The translations under genes were made by a program, and so were the position numbers. A stretch of DNA of 64,000 nucleotides, taken from NCBI GenBank assembly GCA_028710415.1, contig JAQTUE010000002.1, forward strand, positions 186,001 to 250,000. Reading direction: 5' to 3'. Below the pieces are notes generated by a model. It made no database searches. It was not told the DNA's origin and worked only from the letters and a program-made list of their open reading frames with translations. This document shows, piece after piece, positions 38,596 through 49,622 of this stretch. Numbering within the stretch: the first letter of the stretch is position 1; each line of letters opens with the position of its first letter. The DNA is from Paludibacter sp. (lineage in GTDB: Bacteria; Bacteroidota; Bacteroidia; Bacteroidales; Paludibacteraceae).

Positions 38596-40188
38596 ATGCC
38601 GTCATTTTCCCGTTCTATTTTGTTTCTGATCAGCTGTATATTTATGTACAGTTGTTCGCTCATGCCCAATGAGATAAAAACTGCGGAACGGATCATGGAG
38701 TCTGATCCGGACTCTGCATTACATATCCTTCAACACATGCACACTGATAAATTGATGATGTCTTCGTCAGATCGTGCATTATATGGATTAATTCTTTTTC
38801 AGGCATTGGATAAAAACAGTAAGCCTTTGCAACCTGATTCTGTCATTAATTTCTCAGTAAATTATTATCTGGAAGCAAATGATAAACCTCATTTGGCTAA
38901 AAGTTATTATTACAAAGCAAGAGTATATAAGCAAGCTCAACGTTTTGATGATGCAACAATATTATACTTAAAAGCTTTAGATTTAACCCAGAATTTTAAG
39001 GATAATATCATGCTGGGGAAAATTTATTCGGATATGGGCGATATTTGCATAATTCAAAAAGATTATAATGAATCATTAGTTAAATATCAGCAGTCAATAA
39101 AATACTTTATTGGTGAAGGTAAAAAGGTAGAGGCAAGTTACAGGATTATTTCTGTAGGAAAAGTGTACCACTTTTTAAAAGATTATAAAAAAGCGCAGCA
39201 ATATTATACGCAAGCCCTTTCCCATACAAAAGATTCATTGCTACAAGGTATTGCATATCAGGAAATAGGAATTAATTACTATTGGGCAAAACAATATGAT
39301 TCAGCTCAATACTTTCTGAGAAAAAGTATAAAATATCCTTATCATGGAACAAACTATGCTATCAGATGCTATAATTTGGCAGACTTATTTTTTGATATAA
39401 ACAAATACGACTCAGCGTTTAATTATGCTACTTTAGCATTAAAATATCCTTCTACTTTTTATAATCAACGGGATTGTTATCGGATTTTGGCTAATACAGA
39501 ATACATCCGAGGAGATTTAAAGCAAATTGCTTTTTATATGTCAAAATATCAGGATTGTACTGATTCTGTTCGAAGAATAGAGCTTCAAACAAAAACTTCA
39601 GTGCTAGAAGATATGCATCAGACAAACGGTGCCTTTAGTAAATCGAAACATTTCCTGCTAATACTAGCTTGTATTATTCCACTGATAATCTTGTTTAGTC
39701 TTTTTATTGTATATCGACTAAGAAAAAGAAATAAAGGGAAGGAAGAACAGCTGGAACAGGCGGAAGAAAAACTGATTAAAAAACAAGGTCTGTTACGGGA
39801 TAGTTTAATTCAAAAAATAGAAGAAAATAAAGCAATACATATACCGGCTTATAAAAAAGCGACGTTAAGTCAACGGGAATTAATGGACAAAGAGATCTAT
39901 AATTCCTGTTTGCATGTAAATGATTGGGAAGTCTTCAAAAAGTTGATGAACCAGACATTTAACAATCTTGTTGACACGCTGGAAAATAAATACACAGACA
40001 TTAATCACAAAGAAATGATTTGGTGTTGTCTTTTTTTGCTTAATGTTCCTACTCCCGATTTGTCATTAGTTCTTGAAAGCCAACCCGGAAGTCTCTATAA
40101 ACTTAAACAACGGTTAACTCAAAAGATGAATCTTACGAGTACGAAAGATCTTGACCAATTACTCCGCAATTTATCCGAAGATAAATAA
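38596..40188 (+). CDS. TPR lipoprotein with membrane helix and LuxR-like HTH, copy 1
   Basis: 530 residues. Signal with lipobox FMYSC at the N-terminus; TPR-type helical repeats from about 30 to 330 (AKSYYYKARVYKQAQRFDDA, KIYSDMGDICIIQKDYNES); one membrane helix near 352-374; basic coiled coil to about 430; C-terminal ~80 residues with the pattern HKEMIWCCLFLL...SLYKLKQRLTQKMNLTSTKDL, like a LuxR/GerE helix-turn-helix. This layout suggests a periplasmic sensor joined to a cytoplasmic DNA-binding domain. The gene is followed by a terminator and then a DUF3244 gene. Two paralogues follow within 5 kb. Confidence 0.75.
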   Translation: MPSFSRSILFLISCIFMYSCSLMPNEIKTAERIMESDPDSALHILQHMHTDKLMMSSSDRALYGLILFQALDKNSKPLQPDSVINFSVNYYLEANDKPHLAKSYYYKARVYKQAQRFDDATILYLKALDLTQNFKDNIMLGKIYSDMGDICIIQKDYNESLVKYQQSIKYFIGEGKKVEASYRIISVGKVYHFLKDYKKAQQYYTQALSHTKDSLLQGIAYQEIGINYYWAKQYDSAQYFLRKSIKYPYHGTNYAIRCYNLADLFFDINKYDSAFNYATLALKYPSTFYNQRDCYRILANTEYIRGDLKQIAFYMSKYQDCTDSVRRIELQTKTSVLEDMHQTNGAFSKSKHFLLILACIIPLIILFSLFIVYRLRKRNKGKEEQLEQAEEKLIKKQGLLRDSLIQKIEENKAIHIPAYKKATLSQRELMDKEIYNSCLHVNDWEVFKKLMNQTFNNLVDTLENKYTDINHKEMIWCCLFLLNVPTPDLSLVLESQPGSLYKLKQRLTQKMNLTSTKDLDQLLRNLSEDK

Positions 40189-40221
40189 ATCCGCAAAACC
40201 TTACTTTCTCAATTTAGGGCT

Positions 40222-40266
40222 GGTAAAAAGAGGCATATTTTAATGCTCTTTTTACCATTTTTTTTT
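40222..40266 (+). terminator. Terminator after TPR lipoprotein 1
   Basis: GGTAAAAAGAGGCAT pairs with ATGCTCTTTTTACC (one bulge), followed by a nine-T run. Confidence 0.85.
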
Positions 40267-40267
40267 C

Positions 40268-40389
40268 ATGTCCTAAAAATATCTACATGTCCACAGATAA
40301 AGTGCTACAATTCAACTATATAAAAAATGGCTTGTCCTAATTTATTTTGCCTCAAAATTTGCGATAGTGGGTTTGTATATATAATTTAG
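40268..40389 (+). promoter_or_regulatory. TGTCC motif array and promoter of the DUF3244 gene
   Basis: ATGTCC at 40268 and 40287, TTGTCC at 40332, then TTTG (40358-40361), 20-base spacer and TAATTTAG (40382-40389). The same arrangement with nearly identical spacing recurs at 45225-45344. Confidence 0.65.
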
Positions 40390-40455
40390 CACCATGAAGG
40401 AATGCCTAACATTGGATTCCATAACCCTATGTTCACACTATAAATTCAATTTTTT

Positions 40456-40887
40456 ATGAAAAAAATTAACTTTAAGCTTTTAGGCTTTTTCATTGTTTCA
40501 CTTTCTCTTTTTACAAATCAGGTGGTTTATGCAGATATTCTAATTAGAAAAGATGATCCGGCACCTGGAGGTGGTAGTAATATTGCTACTCAATCTTATT
40601 CACTTTCTACAACTACATCTACAAAAACTTATTCCTCAAGTACCAAATTTGTTATTCCAGTTACAGCCGATGTAGTAGGTTCGGAATTATTTGTTGATTT
40701 CACAATAAGTGTTGGAACAGCATATGTTTCGGTTGTGGATGCTAATGGAAGCGTTGTTTATCAAACTGCGGTTGATACTTACAGTACTCCTGAAGTAGTA
40801 ATACCAGTTGATGGATTGAGTAGTGGAAAATATTCATTGAAAATTTCATACGGCTCAACAAGTCTTACAGGTAATTTTCAGTTATAA
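40456..40887 (+). CDS. DUF3244-like secreted protein
   Basis: 143 residues. Signal peptide (about 1-26), then a Ser/Thr-rich linker and an Ig-like beta sandwich: ELFVDFTISVGTAYVSVVDANGSVVYQT...VIPVDGLSSGKYSLKIS, ending like a T9SS or adhesive domain but too short for a full sorting signal. This matches DUF3244, small exported proteins of Bacteroidales. It lies directly behind TPR lipoprotein 1 and has its own TGTCC-type promoter, so it is a candidate target of that regulator. Confidence 0.7.
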   Translation: MKKINFKLLGFFIVSLSLFTNQVVYADILIRKDDPAPGGGSNIATQSYSLSTTTSTKTYSSSTKFVIPVTADVVGSELFVDFTISVGTAYVSVVDANGSVVYQTAVDTYSTPEVVIPVDGLSSGKYSLKISYGSTSLTGNFQL

Positions 40888-40898
40888 TTGAAGTTCTA

Positions 40899-40926
40899 AA
40901 CGAGGCGGGATAAAACCCGCCTCGTT
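40899..40926 (+). terminator. Hairpin after the DUF3244 gene
   Basis: Perfect 11-bp stem AACGAGGCGGG/CCCGCCTCGTT with a six-base loop; no T run follows, so it may be a processing or weak termination site. Confidence 0.6.
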
Positions 40927-40956
40927 ATTCCAAAAATTGAAGAGGAAATTTAAAAG

Positions 40957-41502
40957 ATGATTATCATGAAAAATGTTCTAAAAGCGTGGTTGAGAAAAAA
41001 CCAACTAACTATTGATCCAACCGAATACAATACACAAGTGGTTGTAAAGGGCAATTTAGGATTAACAGATATCGTTGACGAACTTATTAAGGAAGGCATT
41101 GAAATGGATCGGGATACAATGCTCGATATTATCACCCGTTTCAACCGTAAGTCGGCCGACCTGGCGCTATCCGGATACAATGTGAACAATGGTCTGGTAA
41201 ATATGCGTTCGTCGATTAAAGGGCCTCTATTTGGAGGTAAATGGAATCCAAATGTCAATTGGGTGGATGTAAACCTTACACAAGGTAAAGAATTGTATGA
41301 CGCTGTAGCTGCTACCACCGTAGAAATACTGGGTGAAAGGGACGAAATGATTGAAAGTTATAACCTTTCTAATCAAACCAGCGAGTTTAACGGAAGATTT
41401 CATACAAAAGTCCGTCAGGCAGAGTTGAGTGAACCACAATTGAAAACGGCAGGAGAGCCTGCTTGTGGTATTGCATTTAGAACCTGGTTGTGTAAAGCTT
41501 AA
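40957..41502 (+). CDS. HU-like DNA-binding protein (PF14848 type), short form
   Basis: 181 residues; a second in-frame ATG is three codons later. KAWLRKNQLTIDPTEYNTQVV, ELIKEGIEMDRDTMLDIITRFNRKSADLALSGYNVNNGLVNMRSSIKGPLF and VNLTQGKELYDAV are the hallmarks of the Bacteroidales HU-like DNA-binding domain. The usual C-terminal Ig-like half (DUF4469) is replaced by about 50 unrelated residues. It lies between DUF3244 and TPR lipoprotein 2, without a strong promoter of its own. Confidence 0.75.
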   Translation: MIIMKNVLKAWLRKNQLTIDPTEYNTQVVVKGNLGLTDIVDELIKEGIEMDRDTMLDIITRFNRKSADLALSGYNVNNGLVNMRSSIKGPLFGGKWNPNVNWVDVNLTQGKELYDAVAATTVEILGERDEMIESYNLSNQTSEFNGRFHTKVRQAELSEPQLKTAGEPACGIAFRTWLCKA

Positions 41503-41607
41503 ATTGATTTCAATTATTTAAAATATACATTATGATCTTAATCGTGTTATTTTTGAATTTCTACTTCTGTTTGTAAGCACAGAGGAATTAATACTGAAAA
41601 AAAATAG

Positions 41608-41652
41608 TATTTTTGCATTTCAACGCACAAATTCCTATAGTCGAATTGTGCG
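41608..41652 (+). promoter_or_regulatory. -7 element and 5'-UTR hairpin of TPR lipoprotein 2
   Basis: TATTTTTG (41608-41615), then hairpin CGCACAAATTC/GAATTGTGCG (41624-41652) just before the start. A related -7 element and AATTC/GAATT hairpin precede copy 3 (43505-43547). Confidence 0.6.
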
Positions 41653-41668
41653 AACTGAAACAAGCATT

Positions 41669-43258
41669 ATGCAATTTAAAGTCAGTTTATTACTTTTCAT
41701 ATTTTGTTTATTGTTAGCCGGTTGCTCATTCGTTCCCAACGAAATGAAAACCGCTGAACGGATTATGGATGCTCATCCTGATTCGGCATTGTATATCCTT
41801 CAACATCTGAAACCCGAGAAATATAAGGCTAATTCCGATCGGGCTTTATACGGATTGCTTCTTTCACAGGCTCTTGACAAAAACGACAAGATTATTACAC
41901 CTGAATCACTTATTGATTTTTCAATTGATTATTACCAAAAACAAAATGATTATTTGCATTTAGCCGGCAGTTATTACATGAAAGGCCATATGTATAAACA
42001 CGCCCAACGCTATGATGATGCAGCTATATTTTACCTGAAGGCAAATGATTGTATTCAGGATGTTAGTGATTTTGCTTTGTCCGGGAAGATATATGCCGAT
42101 TTGGGAGATATTTGCTCAATACAGCATGATTATAAGGATGCGATGAAAAAATACAGAACTTCACTCGACTTTTTAAATAAAGCAGGACGAAAAAATGAAG
42201 CTTATACCATAATTCTTTGCTTAGGTCGAACGAATAGAATTCAGAAAAATTATACAAAAGCTAAAAAGTATTATCGGTATGTATTGAATAGAACAAAAGA
42301 CTCTTTTTTACTTGGATCGGTCTATCAGGAAATGGGAATCAATTATTATGCTGCAAAGCAACTTGATTCCGCAGAATTGTATTTGAGAAGAAGTCTAAAT
42401 TACCCTTATAAAAGTACAAATTATTCTATCAGGACTTATAGTTTAGCCGATTTATTATTTGAGAAAGCGCAATATGACTTATCTTTCCAATTTGCTACAG
42501 TAGCATTAAAACACCCGGCGAACTTTTATACCCAGCGTGAATGTTACAGGATTTTAGTAAATGTTGAATACTTACGAAAAGATATTAATGAGATGGGGAA
42601 ATATATGACTCAGTATCAAAGTTGCGGCGATTCCATCCGTAAAGTGGAATCACAAACCAAAAGTTCAGTGCTTGAGAGTCTTCATAATGCTACCCGGGAA
42701 GCAAAAGGAACTAAGAAAAGCATGATTTTGATAGTTACGTTATTACTGATTATTTTATCGTTATCCACCTATGTAGTTTATAATTTGTTTCAACGAAATA
42801 AACTTAAAAGGGAACAACTGAATATTTTTAAGCATCAATTAAATATAAAACAGGAATTTGCAAGCCAGGCATTGTCTAACAAAATAGAAGAGATAAAAGC
42901 CCTGCAAGTGGAGGAACGCAAAAATGCTTCTGTTGAAGAACGCGAAAGGCTTGATAAAGAATTATATTTTATATCTTTACACTTGAATAATTGGGATGTT
43001 TTCAAACAGGAAATGAACCACACATTTAATAATATTATTAATATTTTAATTTCAATCAATCCTTCAATAACCCAAAAGGAGATTACCTGGAGCTGTTTAC
43101 ATTTGCTTGATCTCCCTCATGCTGACCGAATGTTATTGCTGGATGCTACCTCCGATAGTTTATATAAACTTAAACAACGATTAGCTCATAAATTAAATCT
43201 TCGATCAACCAAAGATCTGGATTTGTTTCTGAAAAATATGATGGCAATAAAAGATTAA
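41669..43258 (+). CDS. TPR lipoprotein with membrane helix and LuxR-like HTH, copy 2
   Basis: 529 residues from ATG 41669, chosen because CATTATGCA aligns with the start of copy 3; the frame is open from 41648. The lipobox LLAGC is clear. TPR-like repeats follow, then a membrane helix around 354-376, a coiled coil of RNKLKREQLN... and an HTH-like end (QKEITWSCLHLLDLPHADRM...SLYKLKQRLAHKLNLRSTKDL). Close paralogue of copy 3 and more distant from copy 1. Confidence 0.75.
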   Translation: MQFKVSLLLFIFCLLLAGCSFVPNEMKTAERIMDAHPDSALYILQHLKPEKYKANSDRALYGLLLSQALDKNDKIITPESLIDFSIDYYQKQNDYLHLAGSYYMKGHMYKHAQRYDDAAIFYLKANDCIQDVSDFALSGKIYADLGDICSIQHDYKDAMKKYRTSLDFLNKAGRKNEAYTIILCLGRTNRIQKNYTKAKKYYRYVLNRTKDSFLLGSVYQEMGINYYAAKQLDSAELYLRRSLNYPYKSTNYSIRTYSLADLLFEKAQYDLSFQFATVALKHPANFYTQRECYRILVNVEYLRKDINEMGKYMTQYQSCGDSIRKVESQTKSSVLESLHNATREAKGTKKSMILIVTLLLIILSLSTYVVYNLFQRNKLKREQLNIFKHQLNIKQEFASQALSNKIEEIKALQVEERKNASVEERERLDKELYFISLHLNNWDVFKQEMNHTFNNIINILISINPSITQKEITWSCLHLLDLPHADRMLLLDATSDSLYKLKQRLAHKLNLRSTKDLDLFLKNMMAIKD

Positions 43259-43504
43259 AATACAGCATTTTTTTTAATTTTTCATTACAACCTACTATGT
43301 AATTCTTCTGGGTTTTTGATTATAATAATGGACACAGGATTTTGTACTGGCAGTCATTAACTAGCTGTATCAAAGTATAGTGAGTCTTGAGGATGACTTT
43401 TTTTGTTATAATAATGATAATTAAAGTTAGGTTTCTTTAACGAGTATTTAATTCATTATTTAGATGCTGAAAGTGAAAAGAATAGAAAATGAATTTATTT
43501 TTTG

Positions 43505-43547
43505 TAATTTTGCAACTCAACGCAACAATTCTTTATCTGAATTGCTC
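43505..43547 (+). promoter_or_regulatory. -7 element and 5'-UTR hairpin of TPR lipoprotein 3
   Basis: TAATTTTG (43505-43512), then GCAACAATTC (43522-43531) partly pairing with GAATTGCTC (43539-43547). The remainder of the 43259-43504 gap is AT-rich with no gene seen. Confidence 0.55.
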
Positions 43548-43564
43548 AACCTGAAGTACGCATT

Positions 43565-45154
43565 ATGCATTTTAAAATCAGCATATTCATTCTTTTTTTT
43601 AGTCTTTTTATTACCGGTTGTTCATTTGTTCCAAACGAATTGAAAACTGCTGAACGAATCATGGATGCTCATCCTGATTCGGCTTTGTCTATCCTACAGC
43701 ATCTTAAAACCAAGAATTACAAATCTCATTCTGACCAGGCTTTGTATGGTTTGCTCCTTTTCCAGGCTTTGGATCAAAATAATAAACCATTTTTGTCGGA
43801 TTCATTGATTGATTTTTCAATATCTTATTATCAAATTCAAAATGACAAGCGACATCTGGCAACTTGTTATTATTACAAGGGTCATACAGCAAAATATTCT
43901 CAACATTTTGATGAAGCAGCATCATTTTACATCAAAGCATTAGAGTGTCTTCAAAATAATACTGATGATAAACTGATGGGGAAAATCTATACTGATATGG
44001 GTGATATATGTTCATTTCAACAGGATTATAAAGAAGCACGAAAAAAATATATAAAATCTCTTGAATATTTTAAGAAATCAGGAAGAACAATTGATTCAAA
44101 GTTTGTAATTCTCTCAATAGGGCGAACCTACCATTTTTTAAAAGATTATAAAACAGCCCAACGATATTATCTTGAAGCCCTTCCACAGATTAGTGACTCT
44201 ATGGTATATGGTGCCGTTTATCAAGAGTTGGGGACTAATTATTATTCCAGCAAGCAATTTGATTCAGCTGAATATTATCTTCGAAAAAGTCTGAATTATC
44301 CTTATAAAGGTACAAGCTATTCTATAAGATGTTATGCATTAGCTGATTTGTTGTTTGATAAAGATCAAATTGATTCATCAAAACAGTATGCTTTACTTGG
44401 ATTGAGATATCCCGCAACTTTTTTTACTAGGCGTGAATATTACAGAATATTGACTAATATAGAATATTCACGGAAGAACTTTAATCAAATGAAATTGTAT
44501 ATGACATATTATCAGGATTATACTGACTCGATTCATAAAATAGAATTACAAACCAAGAGTACTGTTCTTGAAAATTTTCATACCACTACTCAGGAAGCCA
44601 GTATGACTAAAAAGAGTATGATTCTGATTGTTTCAATTTTACTGATTGTTTTGCTGCTTTCCGTCTATTTAGTTTTTTATTTGTTCAAACGAAACAAGTT
44701 GAAAAGGGAACAATTGAATGCTTTTAAGCAGCAATTAAATATTAAACAGGAATTTGTGAACCAGGGTTTGATACATAAAATTGAAGAAACAAAAGCATTG
44801 AAAGCTGAGGAGCGTAAAAATGCTTCCGTCGATGAACGTGCAAACCTGGATAAAGAATTATATAATATTGCGTTGCATTTAAATAACTGGGATGTTTTTA
44901 GCGGAGAAATGAATCATGCTTTCAATAATATCATTGTTTCATTAAAATCTGTGTATCCGGCAATTACGCGCAAAGAAAAAATCTGGTGTTGTTTGCATCT
45001 CCTTGATGTTCCGCATGCTGATAGAATGTTATTACTTGAAGCAACTTCCGATAGTTTATATAAACTGAAACAACGTTTGGCTCACAAATTGAATCTGAAA
45101 TCAACCAAAGAACTGGATTTGTATCTAAAAAACCTGACTGAAATAAAGGATTAG
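43565..45154 (+). CDS. TPR lipoprotein with membrane helix and LuxR-like HTH, copy 3
   Basis: 529 residues. Signal and lipobox FITGC, then VPNELKTAERIMDAHPDSAL shared with the other copies; TPR-like repeats; membrane helix in MTKKSMILIVSILLIVLLLS near 352-374; coiled coil; terminal HTH pattern RKEKIWCCLHLLDVPHADRM...LYKLKQRLAHKLNLKSTKEL. Followed by a second copy of the TGTCC motif array instead of a DUF3244 gene. Confidence 0.75.
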   Translation: MHFKISIFILFFSLFITGCSFVPNELKTAERIMDAHPDSALSILQHLKTKNYKSHSDQALYGLLLFQALDQNNKPFLSDSLIDFSISYYQIQNDKRHLATCYYYKGHTAKYSQHFDEAASFYIKALECLQNNTDDKLMGKIYTDMGDICSFQQDYKEARKKYIKSLEYFKKSGRTIDSKFVILSIGRTYHFLKDYKTAQRYYLEALPQISDSMVYGAVYQELGTNYYSSKQFDSAEYYLRKSLNYPYKGTSYSIRCYALADLLFDKDQIDSSKQYALLGLRYPATFFTRREYYRILTNIEYSRKNFNQMKLYMTYYQDYTDSIHKIELQTKSTVLENFHTTTQEASMTKKSMILIVSILLIVLLLSVYLVFYLFKRNKLKREQLNAFKQQLNIKQEFVNQGLIHKIEETKALKAEERKNASVDERANLDKELYNIALHLNNWDVFSGEMNHAFNNIIVSLKSVYPAITRKEKIWCCLHLLDVPHADRMLLLEATSDSLYKLKQRLAHKLNLKSTKELDLYLKNLTEIKD

Positions 45155-45224: not shown

Positions 45225-45344
45225 ATGTCCAAAAAAAACGGATGTCTAAAAAATAATATCCACATATACAGTGTTTTAAAAACCGTGATGTCCAAAAATA
45301 TTTGGATATTATTTTGGTTGCATTGTGCGTTATAGCTAAATTCG
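45225..45344 (+). promoter_or_regulatory. TGTCC motif array and orphan promoter
   Basis: ATGTCC at 45225, ATGTCT at 45242 and ATGTCC at 45288, then TTTG (45313-45316), 20-base spacer and TAAATTCG (45337-45344). Offsets match those in front of the DUF3244 gene (64/63 between outer motifs, 50/49 to the -7 box). No protein gene of useful length follows on this strand. Confidence 0.6.
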
Positions 45345-45350
45345 CAGGAC

Positions 45351-45742
45351 AATTTCAGGTTTTGATTTTATTCTGAATCAAGCAACATGATTTCATTACA
45401 ACTTATGCAAATCCAAAATCAAATCTTTGAACTTTAAATCAAGTCTGTTTTATTACTTAGCAATTTAAAATCACCAATAATTATAAGGATAAAAGCGGTA
45501 TAGTCTTACTCGGGTGTGTATAGTGAAGTGAACATAAGATATTTGTCCTCTTAACCTAAACCTTTAAATAAAAGAGGATTCAAATTCAACTCGTGATTTT
45601 AGACTGTACCGCTTTACCTTTCTTCTTCTAACCTGTTTTGTAAGCCATTTAAACTGTACAATCGGTAAAAGAATTAATAGTGGTAGCTTGTTCATTAAAA
45701 AGGAAAACAAAGTCATTAAATACTTTGTTTTCCTTTTTTTTT
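45351..45742 (+). ncRNA. Candidate structured non-coding RNA
   Basis: The predicted transcript runs from the orphan promoter to the terminator at 45697-45742. It holds a long-range pairing of AAAGCGGTATAGTCT (45492-45506) with AGACTGTACCGCTTT (45601-45615), and inside it a second helix, ATTTGTCCTCTT (45541-45552) with AAGAGGATTCAAAT (about 45572-45585). The longest frame seen at its start is 16 codons (45387). No known RNA family was recognised. Confidence 0.4.
45697..45742. terminator. Strong bidirectional terminator
   Basis: AAAAAGGAAAACAAAGT pairs with ACTTTGTTTTCCTTTTT around an eight-base loop, with a long T run on the + side. Confidence 0.85.
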
Positions 45743-45808: not shown

Positions 45809-47734
45809 TTATTTACTGCTGGTGAGTCCAGTTTGTTTTTTCAAACTTGCTACTGCTTCATCGGCAGTCGAGATTTGCTCCAGGAAGTCACGGAATTCGA
45901 TATAAGCTTCGGGTGGGAATACTCCTTTTACCAATTCAAAATGGCGAATGTAGGTGATTGAGTTCCCTTGATGAGAAGTAAATGAACTATAGGTACCAAA
46001 CTTGCCGGTGATTTCTGACTTCTCAGGTAATTCTGTTACATTGTAACCGGCAGGTAATTGATAAACCACTGTGTCATTTTCCATGTAAGGCCGACGAATG
46101 CATAGGTCAGTTTTACGGTTTCTTACTTTATCAGGGATTGAAGTAAGTTTATTCATAAAGTTTAATGGGAGTAAGGCAATATCATTCCCCATCTTATGAA
46201 TGTAGTTTGATACTGAAATATTCAGGCTTTCATCAAACGAAGGAGTGGGGCTTCTATGTTCTTCATAGTTGAAATTATCTAATGTGAACGAAGGAAGTTC
46301 AATGTTCTGAGTAACAATTTTAATTTTATCTGCCTTGTCTGCATGATAAATGGGTAAAATGTTGTCGTAACACAGACCGTTGTAATTTGCCTTGACTTCA
46401 GCAATACCTGTAATTTCATCTGTCAGGTTTACTTTTGAATATCGGTTTATGCAATTCTCATTTGCCGAATAGGTACGTGTACGCACTAACCTGCTATTTT
46501 CCCCATCAATAAGAAGTACCAGTCTGTCATCAGTAAAGTCGCTGTTAAAACCACACGGTAATCTTTGGCTGGTGCATTCAAGCCAAACCGTATCTTTTTC
46601 CAATGGTACACATACCATGGCATGATTAAACTGACTCGATGGGAATGAATCATCAATGTGATTGCTCTCTTTTCCTGCCATAACCAGGGTATAATACGAT
46701 TTTATACCAACCGATGATAGTAATGCCTTTGTGTAGTTTGATAATGCCTTACAATCACCATAAGAGAATTTGTCTACTACTGTTGCATCAAAAGGTTGCC
46801 AGCCACCAATACCTATTGATATATTTACATACCTTGTTTTCTGTTGCATGTATTCATAGATGGTTTTCACTTTCTCAAAATCATTTTTACATGCTGAAGT
46901 GATTTCCTTCATCTTTGTAATAGTTGTTTCAGGTAATTTATCTTTATCTTCAATTAGTTTTGAAGCCCACATACCCAACTCTTTCCAACTTTCGGAAGAC
47001 CCTTTTGTATCCAGGAATGCAAAGCCGTTAGGAGCTAATTCTACTAAAGGATATTCCGGTTTTGTTATGGAAGACATAGGTTCATCAATCCTTGCTTTCA
47101 GGTTGTTCAAACTCCAGGTGTAAATATCTTTTCCGTCTGCACTTGATTTTACAACTCCATTTGCTAAATTGTATTCTTTGTATCTTAATGCATAGCCCGA
47201 AGGAGCCTTAACTACAAATACCGATTTTTCAAACGAAGTATTTTCACTTCCATGATTCCATGACGGAAGAAATAATGTTTGTTTCAGATCAATTTGATAC
47301 GAATACTCCACTGTAAAAGGGTAGGTCCGGTATTTGGAATCAAGCATCTTGACGCGAAAATCATCATACATGGAATACTCCGTCATATAACTATGATCAA
47401 TGACATCGTCAACTCCAAAACTCCTGATTTGTTTCCCGGATTCATCATAAACTTTTCCTCTAATCCCGGATATTTTGTTCATGGGAGTATAGAGCTCCTT
47501 AAAATAAGTATCTCTTTCTCCATTTTTATTGAGAATAGTACGTACTTCCGTTACATTAACAAGCGCTGATTTCTCTGATTTAATCTCTACTTCTTGTTGG
47601 TATAGGCGCATGACAGTATGTGCATTTTCTTTCAATGCTGCAGGGATTTCACTTACCGGATATTTTAATTCCTTTGCCGACAGAATTGTTATACAAAGTA
47701 ACAATCCAATGCTTAAACTTATTTTTTTACACAT
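45809..47734 (-). CDS. DUF3857 transglutaminase-like protein with intact cysteine
   Basis: 641 residues. Signal peptide (about 1-20), N-terminal DUF3857 beta domain to about 240, then a transglutaminase-like core with Cys328 in YGDCKAL, His371 in FNHAMV and an acidic residue in WLECTS, where Asp is usual. DUF3858-like C-terminus. Probably a periplasmic or surface protein acting on peptides or proteins; the reaction is not established. It starts four bases after the stop of the next gene upstream, so the two form an operon. Confidence 0.8.
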   Translation of the reverse strand: MCKKISLSIGLLLCITILSAKELKYPVSEIPAALKENAHTVMRLYQQEVEIKSEKSALVNVTEVRTILNKNGERDTYFKELYTPMNKISGIRGKVYDESGKQIRSFGVDDVIDHSYMTEYSMYDDFRVKMLDSKYRTYPFTVEYSYQIDLKQTLFLPSWNHGSENTSFEKSVFVVKAPSGYALRYKEYNLANGVVKSSADGKDIYTWSLNNLKARIDEPMSSITKPEYPLVELAPNGFAFLDTKGSSESWKELGMWASKLIEDKDKLPETTITKMKEITSACKNDFEKVKTIYEYMQQKTRYVNISIGIGGWQPFDATVVDKFSYGDCKALSNYTKALLSSVGIKSYYTLVMAGKESNHIDDSFPSSQFNHAMVCVPLEKDTVWLECTSQRLPCGFNSDFTDDRLVLLIDGENSRLVRTRTYSANENCINRYSKVNLTDEITGIAEVKANYNGLCYDNILPIYHADKADKIKIVTQNIELPSFTLDNFNYEEHRSPTPSFDESLNISVSNYIHKMGNDIALLPLNFMNKLTSIPDKVRNRKTDLCIRRPYMENDTVVYQLPAGYNVTELPEKSEITGKFGTYSSFTSHQGNSITYIRHFELVKGVFPPEAYIEFRDFLEQISTADEAVASLKKQTGLTSSK

Positions 47735-47738
47735 AGTA

Positions 47739-49622
47739 TTAATCTTTCTTGATTATCAACATTTCAGACTGTTTCTTTACCAGTTCATCGAAGAATGCCT
47801 TTAAATTCTGATATTCTGGTTGATAAAATACTGGTTTGTTAATGTTAAGCTTGAAAAGTATCTGTACGTTTTTCTCCATGTAGGTGGATGTCATTTGAAA
47901 GCTTGCGGTATTCTCCGGAAGTGCCATTTTTATGTTTTTTGGCAATTGTTCTACCGAATAACCGGTCGGTATTTCAAGCATAAAGATCTGGGTTCTGTCA
48001 ATTGATGTCGTGAAATCCACAGGATATACTCTCTGTTCTGCTTTAAACGGGTTTTCTGTATATTTGTCAAATAATATCGGATTTATATAGATTAGATTAT
48101 TTGATTTTGTTGCCCTGTTTTTCAATGTAATGGTGAACTCTTCCTGCAGCGGTTTATGAAGGCTGTCTAAAGAGATTAATTTGAAATTATCAATGGACAG
48201 ACCCAGGTATTTGCTCTCCAAAGATTTTAAATACTCATCTTCGCTATTAAAAGTCTTATAATGATTTCTCTGGTCTAATGCCCCGTAATCATAAGTTGTT
48301 TTCCCCCAACTCCCTTTTAATGTTCCTTCGGGAGCAAGTTTTAGGTTTAGTATGATTACTGATTTGTTTTTCTTTGTAGGAGTTAAATCAATCCATTCTT
48401 CAGTTTCTTTTTTTACAACCAGTCCACGCCCATTTATGGCGCGTTCAGGTAACATTCCAAGTGGTAAATAATCCTCGGTAGCGTCAAGCAAGTAAGTCTT
48501 CTCACCGATAATTACATGGGCCACCACATAGTTCAACCGGTCCAGGCTTACAGAATAAGGAGGCAATTGACCGTTGTCACGTGTGCTTAATACCATAGGG
48601 CTGGCATCTATTCCTAGTTTTCGAAGCAATAATACCAAATTCATGTTGACATCGGCCTCATTTCCTATTTTCTTGTTAAAAGAATAATTGAGCCCATTGC
48701 CCGAAACCCAGAGTGACTCGTTTTTATTCCATTTGATTTTTTTTATGGCATCATACGCTTTTACCAGTCGTTCTTCCGGAACTGTGGTAGAGTTTTTTAT
48801 TTCTTTCTCCAAACCATTTAATGAAAAATTGATTGTGTTTAATTGTCCGCCAAAATCTTCATCCATGCGCAATGTTTTAGCTACTGCTCCCCAGCTGGTA
48901 GCATAATCCTTGTACAAATATCCGGGAATGTGAATGCTTGATAGTTCAATGTAAAAACGTGCCAGGTAATTTTCATAATTATTGATGTAAGGTTCAGTCT
49001 TGAACGCAGGGACATCCTTGGTTACCCACCTGTTGTTAGTTGCTTCCGAAAATGGGATATATCCCGTAGGATTTTTTCGGAATGAGAAATTGATATTTTC
49101 TTCAATTATCAGCTCACTCCAACGCATTGGTATGTCTTTTTGGAAACTCCAGTAGGATGGTAATCCTGTGTAATAAAATTCAATATCAAGTATGGACCCT
49201 GCTTTTACATTTGGCATGGCAACCCTGGCCTGATAAACATCCTTGGTGATTCGATCTATGAAAATGCCGTCTTTGGTAAGTTTGGTTATTACCGGCTTGC
49301 CGTTTTCTAAATTCACAGTTTGCCCTTTTACAGTTGCCCTTTCTGAGGCGGGAACTGAAAAGTTTCCCTGGTCTTTCCCTTCTTCTTTTAGGATCTTTAT
49401 GCGCATTTGATGTACAAATTGCAGTTGGTTGGAATTAAAGTAACCGTAGTTGCATAACACGACTGCTGATGCACTCGAATCCTTCGGGTACACTTTCATT
49501 TCAAGGTCCGCCTGATCGATTTTCCCATATTTCATTGGGGCTTTTTGTGCCGAGATTGAAACTGCCGTTACCAGCAAATAAAATGCAAGTACTAATTTTC
49601 TGTTGATGATATTAGATTTCAT
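47739..49622 (-). CDS. DUF3857 transglutaminase-like protein lacking the catalytic cysteine
   Basis: 627 residues. Signal peptide, DUF3857 domain (MKVYPKDSSASAVVLCNYGY...), then the transglutaminase-like fold KIGNEADVNMNLVLLLRKLGIDASPMVLST, in which the position of the active cysteine is not Cys, while VAHV and LLDATEDY keep the His and Asp. It is therefore probably not a classical transglutaminase. First gene of a two-gene operon. Confidence 0.8.
   Translation of the reverse strand: MKSNIINRKLVLAFYLLVTAVSISAQKAPMKYGKIDQADLEMKVYPKDSSASAVVLCNYGYFNSNQLQFVHQMRIKILKEEGKDQGNFSVPASERATVKGQTVNLENGKPVITKLTKDGIFIDRITKDVYQARVAMPNVKAGSILDIEFYYTGLPSYWSFQKDIPMRWSELIIEENINFSFRKNPTGYIPFSEATNNRWVTKDVPAFKTEPYINNYENYLARFYIELSSIHIPGYLYKDYATSWGAVAKTLRMDEDFGGQLNTINFSLNGLEKEIKNSTTVPEERLVKAYDAIKKIKWNKNESLWVSGNGLNYSFNKKIGNEADVNMNLVLLLRKLGIDASPMVLSTRDNGQLPPYSVSLDRLNYVVAHVIIGEKTYLLDATEDYLPLGMLPERAINGRGLVVKKETEEWIDLTPTKKNKSVIILNLKLAPEGTLKGSWGKTTYDYGALDQRNHYKTFNSEDEYLKSLESKYLGLSIDNFKLISLDSLHKPLQEEFTITLKNRATKSNNLIYINPILFDKYTENPFKAEQRVYPVDFTTSIDRTQIFMLEIPTGYSVEQLPKNIKMALPENTASFQMTSTYMEKNVQILFKLNINKPVFYQPEYQNLKAFFDELVKKQSEMLIIKKD

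Follow-up and report, generated by a model that had tools for sequence, protein, structure and literature searches.

Three TPR-HTH paralogues in a Paludibacter genome as probable SusR-like membrane-spanning regulators with paired DNA boxes and a candidate structured RNA

What might be controlled by three tandem paralogues, each with a lipoprotein-like repeat domain at one end and a DNA-binding type of domain at the other? The genes (P1, P2 and P3) lie in a stretch of 64,000 nucleotides of a Paludibacter sp. genome (assembly GCA_028710415.1, contig JAQTUE010000002.1, positions 186,001 to 250,000), referred to here as the window. We consider it very probable that P1–P3 are SusR-like, membrane-spanning one-component regulators, with P1 controlling the adjoining DUF3244 and HU-like genes, and P2 and P3 controlling a candidate structured RNA after P3. 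In the proposed mechanism, the exported and probably lipidated tetratricopeptide repeat (TPR) part would sense a ligand in the envelope or outside the cell, perhaps a protein or peptide, and a single helix would pass the signal across the inner membrane to a dimerising coil. The cytoplasmic helix-turn-helix (HTH) domain, of the GerE type, would then bind a pair of direct-repeat boxes directly ahead of a promoter that adjoins the regulator's own gene; about six turns of DNA separate the boxes, or seven in other subfamilies. The architecture, the box pairs, the gene linkage and the covariation of the RNA stem were computed directly. The linkage to DUF3244, the box pairs, and the P3-type pair with its structured RNA are new with respect to the initial annotation, which had proposed a one-protein transmembrane regulator from the sequence alone.

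Architecture and C-terminal domain of P1–P3

The main elements expected from the initial annotation are found in all three proteins. TPR families are matched in P1, P2 and P3, each above the family cut-off. The cysteine of the signal sequence is invariant (38/38 aligned relatives), and of the lipoboxes that end in it, LAGC in P2 and ITGC in P3 are fair and MYSC in P1 is weak; lipidation is probable. A strong internal hydrophobic segment occupies residues 353–371 in P2 and P3 and 354–372 in P1, at the place of the membrane helix predicted near 350–375, and a long coil comes after it. P1 has a second, marginal peak within the HTH, and among the 38 relatives 26 have exactly one hydrophobic peak above 1.6 and 12 have more. 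Lysine plus arginine is higher on the C-terminal side of the membrane helix in 34/38 relatives and equal in 3/38; because basic residues are commoner on that side, a topology with the TPR part outside and the C-terminus inside is favoured. The AlphaFold2 model of P3, from the 38-row alignment, has a mean predicted local distance difference test score (pLDDT) of 88.8 and a predicted template modelling score (pTM) of 0.64. It contains the TPR helices, a single helix (residues 332–412), and four C-terminal helices (469–479, 484–490, 495–508 and 516–525) that stand where the spacing of LuxR/GerE domains had been noticed.

We conclude that the C-terminal domain of P1–P3 is a divergent HTH of the GerE/LuxR type. 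A homologue in the same genome, at locus L038 (loci are numbered L), is 28% identical over residues 10–523 (E 8e-36) and scores 30.3 bits with GerE, against a cut-off of 23.5. The C-terminal profile also matches Y_Y_Y/Reg_prop regulators (E 2e-22 to 7e-22), which themselves score 16.6–20.3 bits with GerE, under the cut-off. When the last 117 residues were modelled alone, a four-helix fold was obtained (pLDDT 91.3, pTM 0.83); among the 50 PDB chains listed by Foldseek, 43 are of the LuxR/NarL/GerE type, with TMt at most 0.72. Comparison with the profiles of five GerE domains of this genome gave the expected register (P 0.0032), and two basic residues of the recognition helix, R504 and K508, are invariant. 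Three results weigh against the assignment: Pfam GerE (PF00196) has no match in P1, P2 or P3, the Foldseek E-values are all greater than 1, and the profile comparison carries a probability of just 9.9%. Searching Pfam, NCBIfam and PDB with the sequences of the window proteins likewise turned up no HTH. P1–P3 lack the histidine that GerE recognition helices commonly carry, and DUF6377 (PF19904) reaches 18.9 bits in P1 against a gathering score of 36.7 and is not listed for P2 or P3. DNA binding by the domain appears probable, with the paired boxes described below as separate support. Taken together, the architecture, the kinship of the HTH, the predicted topology and the paired boxes support the proposed transmembrane regulator.

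The same C-terminal domain (50 bits) is also seen, again in the absence of a GerE match, in a response regulator at L080:3618-4505, which has an RNA copy close by (L174).

Linkage to DUF3244 and the paired boxes

The gaps between regulator and DUF3244 gene contain pairs of short direct repeats at a nearly constant distance. In an open search over lags of 30–130, the best lag was 64 in 15 and 65 in 5 of the 23 tandem gaps, while in six rounds of dinucleotide shuffling a common lag was found in at most 3 of 23. At fixed lag a pair was picked at 64 or 65 bp in 21/23 tandem loci, the exceptions being L058 (a weak pair at 65) and L063 (a pair at 54). Twelve box types occur, and the two copies are identical in 20/21 tandem loci: the letters vary among loci yet agree within each locus. 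A stricter nine-base scan reached a score of 11 in 14/22 tandem gaps compared with 23/400 random stretches of 350 bp. Outside the discovery set, all four intact tandem gaps were best at 64 (L165, L172 and L107) or 65 (L116), with a 45-bp pair tying in L107. In the window, TGTCCTAA is found at 40269 and 40333 only; this count is itself at chance level, and the spaced pair (50–70 bases between) occurs once in the whole genome. The TGTCCAA boxes of the P3-type pair are 63 bp apart, a spacing seen in five P3-type loci. Where regulator and DUF3244 gene are divergent, a search restricted to lags of 73–76 gave a spacing of 75 in five of the 10 loci and of 74 in two more, a weaker signal than in the tandem loci. 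The two classes of spacing correspond to approximately six and seven turns of DNA. An extra TGTCC lies between the boxes at window positions 40288–40292, with like sites in L043, L050, L051 and L107, and L107 has three box-like copies.

Box type was compared with the turn ahead of the recognition helix in 20 loci. The turn (S/T)QP pairs with the box TGTCCTAA in 5 loci, CQQR with TGTCGCAC in 4, CQ(V/L/T) with TGTCTCA in 3 and YK(Q/L)D with TGTCCAG in 2. In L038 TGTCCATA occurs twice at 74 bp, and L073 and L181, which have a similar recognition helix, carry the same box at 75. The partial Mantel correlation of HTH turn and box, given the TPR part, is 0.54, and of the new loci L172 agrees with the code.

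Four points count against reading the pairs as sites of these regulators. The permutation result for the boxes (0/20000) is not independent, as the boxes had been hand-picked for matching each other; of the seven divergent loci with a pair at 74 or 75, just three have this lag on top in the open search; the code breaks down in L165; and a stretch outside the HTH is equally correlated with the box (partial Mantel 0.54), so shared descent may explain the match of turn and box. The many natural pairs of regulator and box, with their varied letters, open both the rule of recognition and the spacing of six or seven turns to direct test.

The survey of DUF3244 synteny suggested by the initial annotation took in the first 40 of 75 listed matches, six lower matches above the cut-off, all in open reading frames (ORFs) of at least 301 amino acids (aa), falling outside it. 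In 28/40 the ORF was no longer than 200 aa (here called stand-alone), and for 26 of these 28 a family gene lies no more than 800 bp away (16 tandem downstream, 10 divergent). The two unlinked cases are G023:C63 and G004:C224, the latter 200 bases from a contig start. No family gene was near any of the 12 matches in longer ORFs. The DUF3244 profile also matches a neighbouring gene in three of four loci from other Bacteroidales, weakly in one of them.

This close pairing, in both orientations, also suits a different role for DUF3244, in which the TPR domain senses it as a ligand or partner and it is not (only) a target. Structures similar to the TPR part include LGN and peptide-bound Rap, among others, which is in line with such a sensor–ligand system. 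The box pair upstream of DUF3244 makes it a target too, and both roles can coexist; the neighbourhoods of L037, L038 and L054 lack DUF3244. We give this alternative clearly less than even weight.

P1 and P2/P3 belong to different branches of the family. P3 shares 64% identity with P2 and 52% with P1, and the source genome has three more full-length homologues. The full-length family query matches 45/60 relatives (E at most 0.001), many through TPRs only; family loci with named sources come from Paludibacter and other Bacteroidales metagenome-assembled genomes. In the tree, P1 falls inside a 14-row clade of DUF3244-linked genes (support 95/98), and P2 and P3 inside an 8-row clade of RNA-linked genes (support 96/94); in the rest, these two labels, which we assigned, interchange with 5 changes. 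Downstream HU-like genes occur in 12 loci of the P1 clade (split in L041, one ORF later in L046); L049 ends with the contig and L052 has none. A view of P1–P3 as three recent copies of one unit was rejected, since the tree puts P1 and P2/P3 in separate supported clades. The earlier suggestion of one signalling unit expanded by duplication holds only in part, given the separate clades, the different boxes and the seemingly different outputs. Genes split between frames were noted for the family gene in L055:3533-5180 and L104:5560-7155 and for the HU gene in L041:4241-4853.

The candidate RNA after P3

Between P3 and the convergent gene there is no ORF of 60 aa; the stretch at 45489–45620 is predicted to fold into a structure that recurs elsewhere and may be transcribed as RNA. 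Against shuffles, the folding z-score is −4.2 to −5.1 in five copies and −1.7 in L044. A covariance model built from five copies found, under strict filters, 35 matches with E at most 0.1 in 18/100 relatives, all within the genus; five are in the source genome, and 14/48 genus genomes have a match at E at most 0.001. In four loci of other Bacteroidales there was no good match to this structure (R1; best E 0.7). Over 25 copies, in an alignment fitted to the closing stem, 96.2% of the stem is paired and two-sided changes occur at 10/15 pairs, measures reached by 0/500 shuffles. Unpaired words are conserved as well (AGTGAA in 25/25 copies, CCTAA[AG]C in 22/25), and 16/25 have a T-rich tail after the stem. 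Rfam 15 at the gathering score has no match in the window and, at the copies in 8 further loci, finds four tRNAs only; the mir matches of a more permissive Rfam search were attributed to AT-rich hairpins arising by chance.

The copies are found beside signalling genes. Of 26 strong matches (E at most 1.3e-6), 22 have a family gene next to them, no more than 2.3 kb away and in some cases with DUF3244 between, G008:C17 being counted from coordinates alone. L164 and L168 lie beside kinase/response-regulator pairs, the neighbours of L174 are a kinase and a response regulator bearing the family C-terminal domain, and L169 is at a contig edge. The nine weaker matches comprise four beside kinases (L175, L177, L178 and L180), four beside family genes (L173, on both strands, L176 and L053) and L179, which looks spurious. 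With no DUF3244 between, 21 copies directly adjoin a family gene (L055, a weak match, included); a box pair precedes 20 of them, and L173 has none. The spacing is 63 bp in 11 of these pairs, 65 in 4 and 73–75 in 5 (weak in L039). Six of the seven kinase-linked copies have no pair above the 95% null, and L177 has a pair of score 11 at 63. Copies downstream of a family gene are oriented away from the box pair.

The kinase-linked copies beside histidine kinases are at L164:6003-6128, L168:5621-5744, L175:5094-5210, L177:5570-5683, L178:1471-1592 and L180:2246-2379. OmpR-type response regulators accompany those of L164, L168 and L175, and a gene for a TonB-type outer membrane protein follows in L164 and L175.

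With about equal weight for and against, these observations can be read as an uncatalogued, multicopy structured RNA that is a shared output of Paludibacter membrane signalling proteins, each copy tied to its own regulator: mostly a TPR-HTH one-component regulator, elsewhere a histidine kinase/response regulator pair. If expressed, the RNA would tie envelope sensing to an RNA output in Bacteroidales. The word TAATTTT, which resembles the −7 promoter box of Bacteroidetes, occurs in the 3′ loop of 17/25 copies, and by analogy the RNA might act as a regulated, 6S-like promoter mimic.

The conserved inverted ends and the several copies per genome would also suit a small mobile or DNA-level hairpin element that is not expressed; given the conserved unpaired words, the signalling genes adjoining nearly all strong matches and the orientation of the copies away from the box pair, we find this improbable. 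Slightly less probable still is that the C-terminal domain has lost DNA binding to become a cytoplasmic protein-interaction module, the boxes serving another regulator, as the missing GerE match, the weak fold statistics and the absent histidine would allow, but box type tracks regulator subfamily, the pair stands at 20/21 directly linked RNA copies, and R504 and K508 are kept.

The locus and its relation to known systems

The features of the locus are collected in Table 1. The DUF3244 and HU-like genes sit between P1 and P2, all on the same strand, and the profile matches agree with the secreted DUF3244 protein and short HU-like protein described earlier; against PDB, the DUF3244 protein has a marginal match only (4g5a, E 0.06). 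The promoter-like element was assigned by the −33/−7 consensus of Bacteroidetes promoters. This pattern is not clearly enriched in the window (20 found, 13.65 expected; 7/100 shuffles equal or higher), a sigma-70 promoter scan of the window was uninformative (20 found, 26.6 expected), and the scan for terminator-like hairpins found 2 where shuffles gave 2.6. Two neighbouring DUF3857/transglutaminase-like proteins of 641 and 627 aa, encoded at 45809–49622 on the minus strand, face the P3 RNA.

Table 1. Positions of the features of the P1–P3 locus within the window.
Feature	Position	Strand	Description
P1 gene	38596..40188	+	530 aa; lipoprotein-type signal, TPRs, membrane helix, coil, divergent GerE-type HTH; DUF3244-linked
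First TGTCCTAA box, P1–DUF3244 gap	40269..40276	+	Lag search and fixed-lag box picking
Second TGTCCTAA box, P1–DUF3244 gap	40333..40340	+	64 bp past first box
Promoter-like TTTG...TATAATTTAG	40358..40389	+	Bacteroidetes −33/−7 type
DUF3244 gene	40456..40887	+	143 aa; PF11589 47.8 bits; signal-like N-terminus
HU-like DNA-binding protein gene	40957..41502	+	181 aa; PF14848 114.2 bits
P2 gene, P3-type paralogue	41666..43258	+	530 aa from ATG; alternative GTG at 41648 gives 536 aa
P3 gene, RNA-linked paralogue	43565..45154	+	529 aa; HTH helices at residues 469–525
First TGTCCAA box, P3-type pair	45226..45232	+	Box-pair scan
Second TGTCCAA box, P3-type pair	45289..45295	+	63 bp past first box
Candidate structured RNA	45489..45620	+	Covarying closing stem; no Rfam match
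Terminator-like hairpin with T run	45697..45738	+	Hairpin scan

The nearest described kind appears to be the SusR-like regulators of Bacteroides (SusR BT3705, SusR2 BT3091), which the relevant passages of PMC3878776 present as membrane-anchored, with a putative C-terminal HTH and a predicted motif in which two direct-repeat sites are widely spaced, their centres 67 or 77 bp apart. The membrane anchor, the C-terminal HTH and the long-spaced direct repeats are shared by the window family. Known SusR proteins serve glycan operons, whereas here DUF3244, HU and RNA adjoin, and the spacing is 63–65 and 73–75 rather than 67 or 77. SusR was not found in the one sus-like locus examined. SusR-like regulators are called poorly studied in a passage of PMC3878776, and the mechanism of SusR undefined in one of PMC6874557. 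Downstream of a BT3442-family gene of another Bacteroidales genome (L186:4866-6569), TGGTACCGT occurs twice, 67 bp apart, a spacing equal to one published for SusR, in a single locus with 22 lags scanned.

The nearest named homologue is BT_3442, which is followed by the Ig (immunoglobulin)-like BT_3441. The BT3442 family (NF053779) is homologous over most of the length, its genes scoring 284 and 290 bits with our family profile, but P1–P3 score 58.2, 60.4 and 91.2 bits with its model, the cut-off of which is 940. In the passages of PMC2954219 on these genes, BT_3441, beside BT_3442 at the head of a MACPF cluster, has an Ig-like fold, and BT_3442 is called a TPR protein with no mention of an HTH. 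The Y_Y_Y/Reg_prop regulators of Bacteroidetes have the same C-terminal domain, but their sensor is a β-propeller where the window family has TPRs.

For the pairing of TPR-HTH regulator and RNA, a coarse search of the open-access literature found no account. A multicopy small RNA family is described in Bacteroides thetaiotaomicron, the FopS RNAs (PMC11697453), and in being multicopy in Bacteroidales the candidate RNA is alike; FopS, as outlined in that paper, has a single-stranded 5′ part and a terminator hairpin, whereas the candidate RNA is closed by a long stem that encloses further structure, and its neighbours are regulators.

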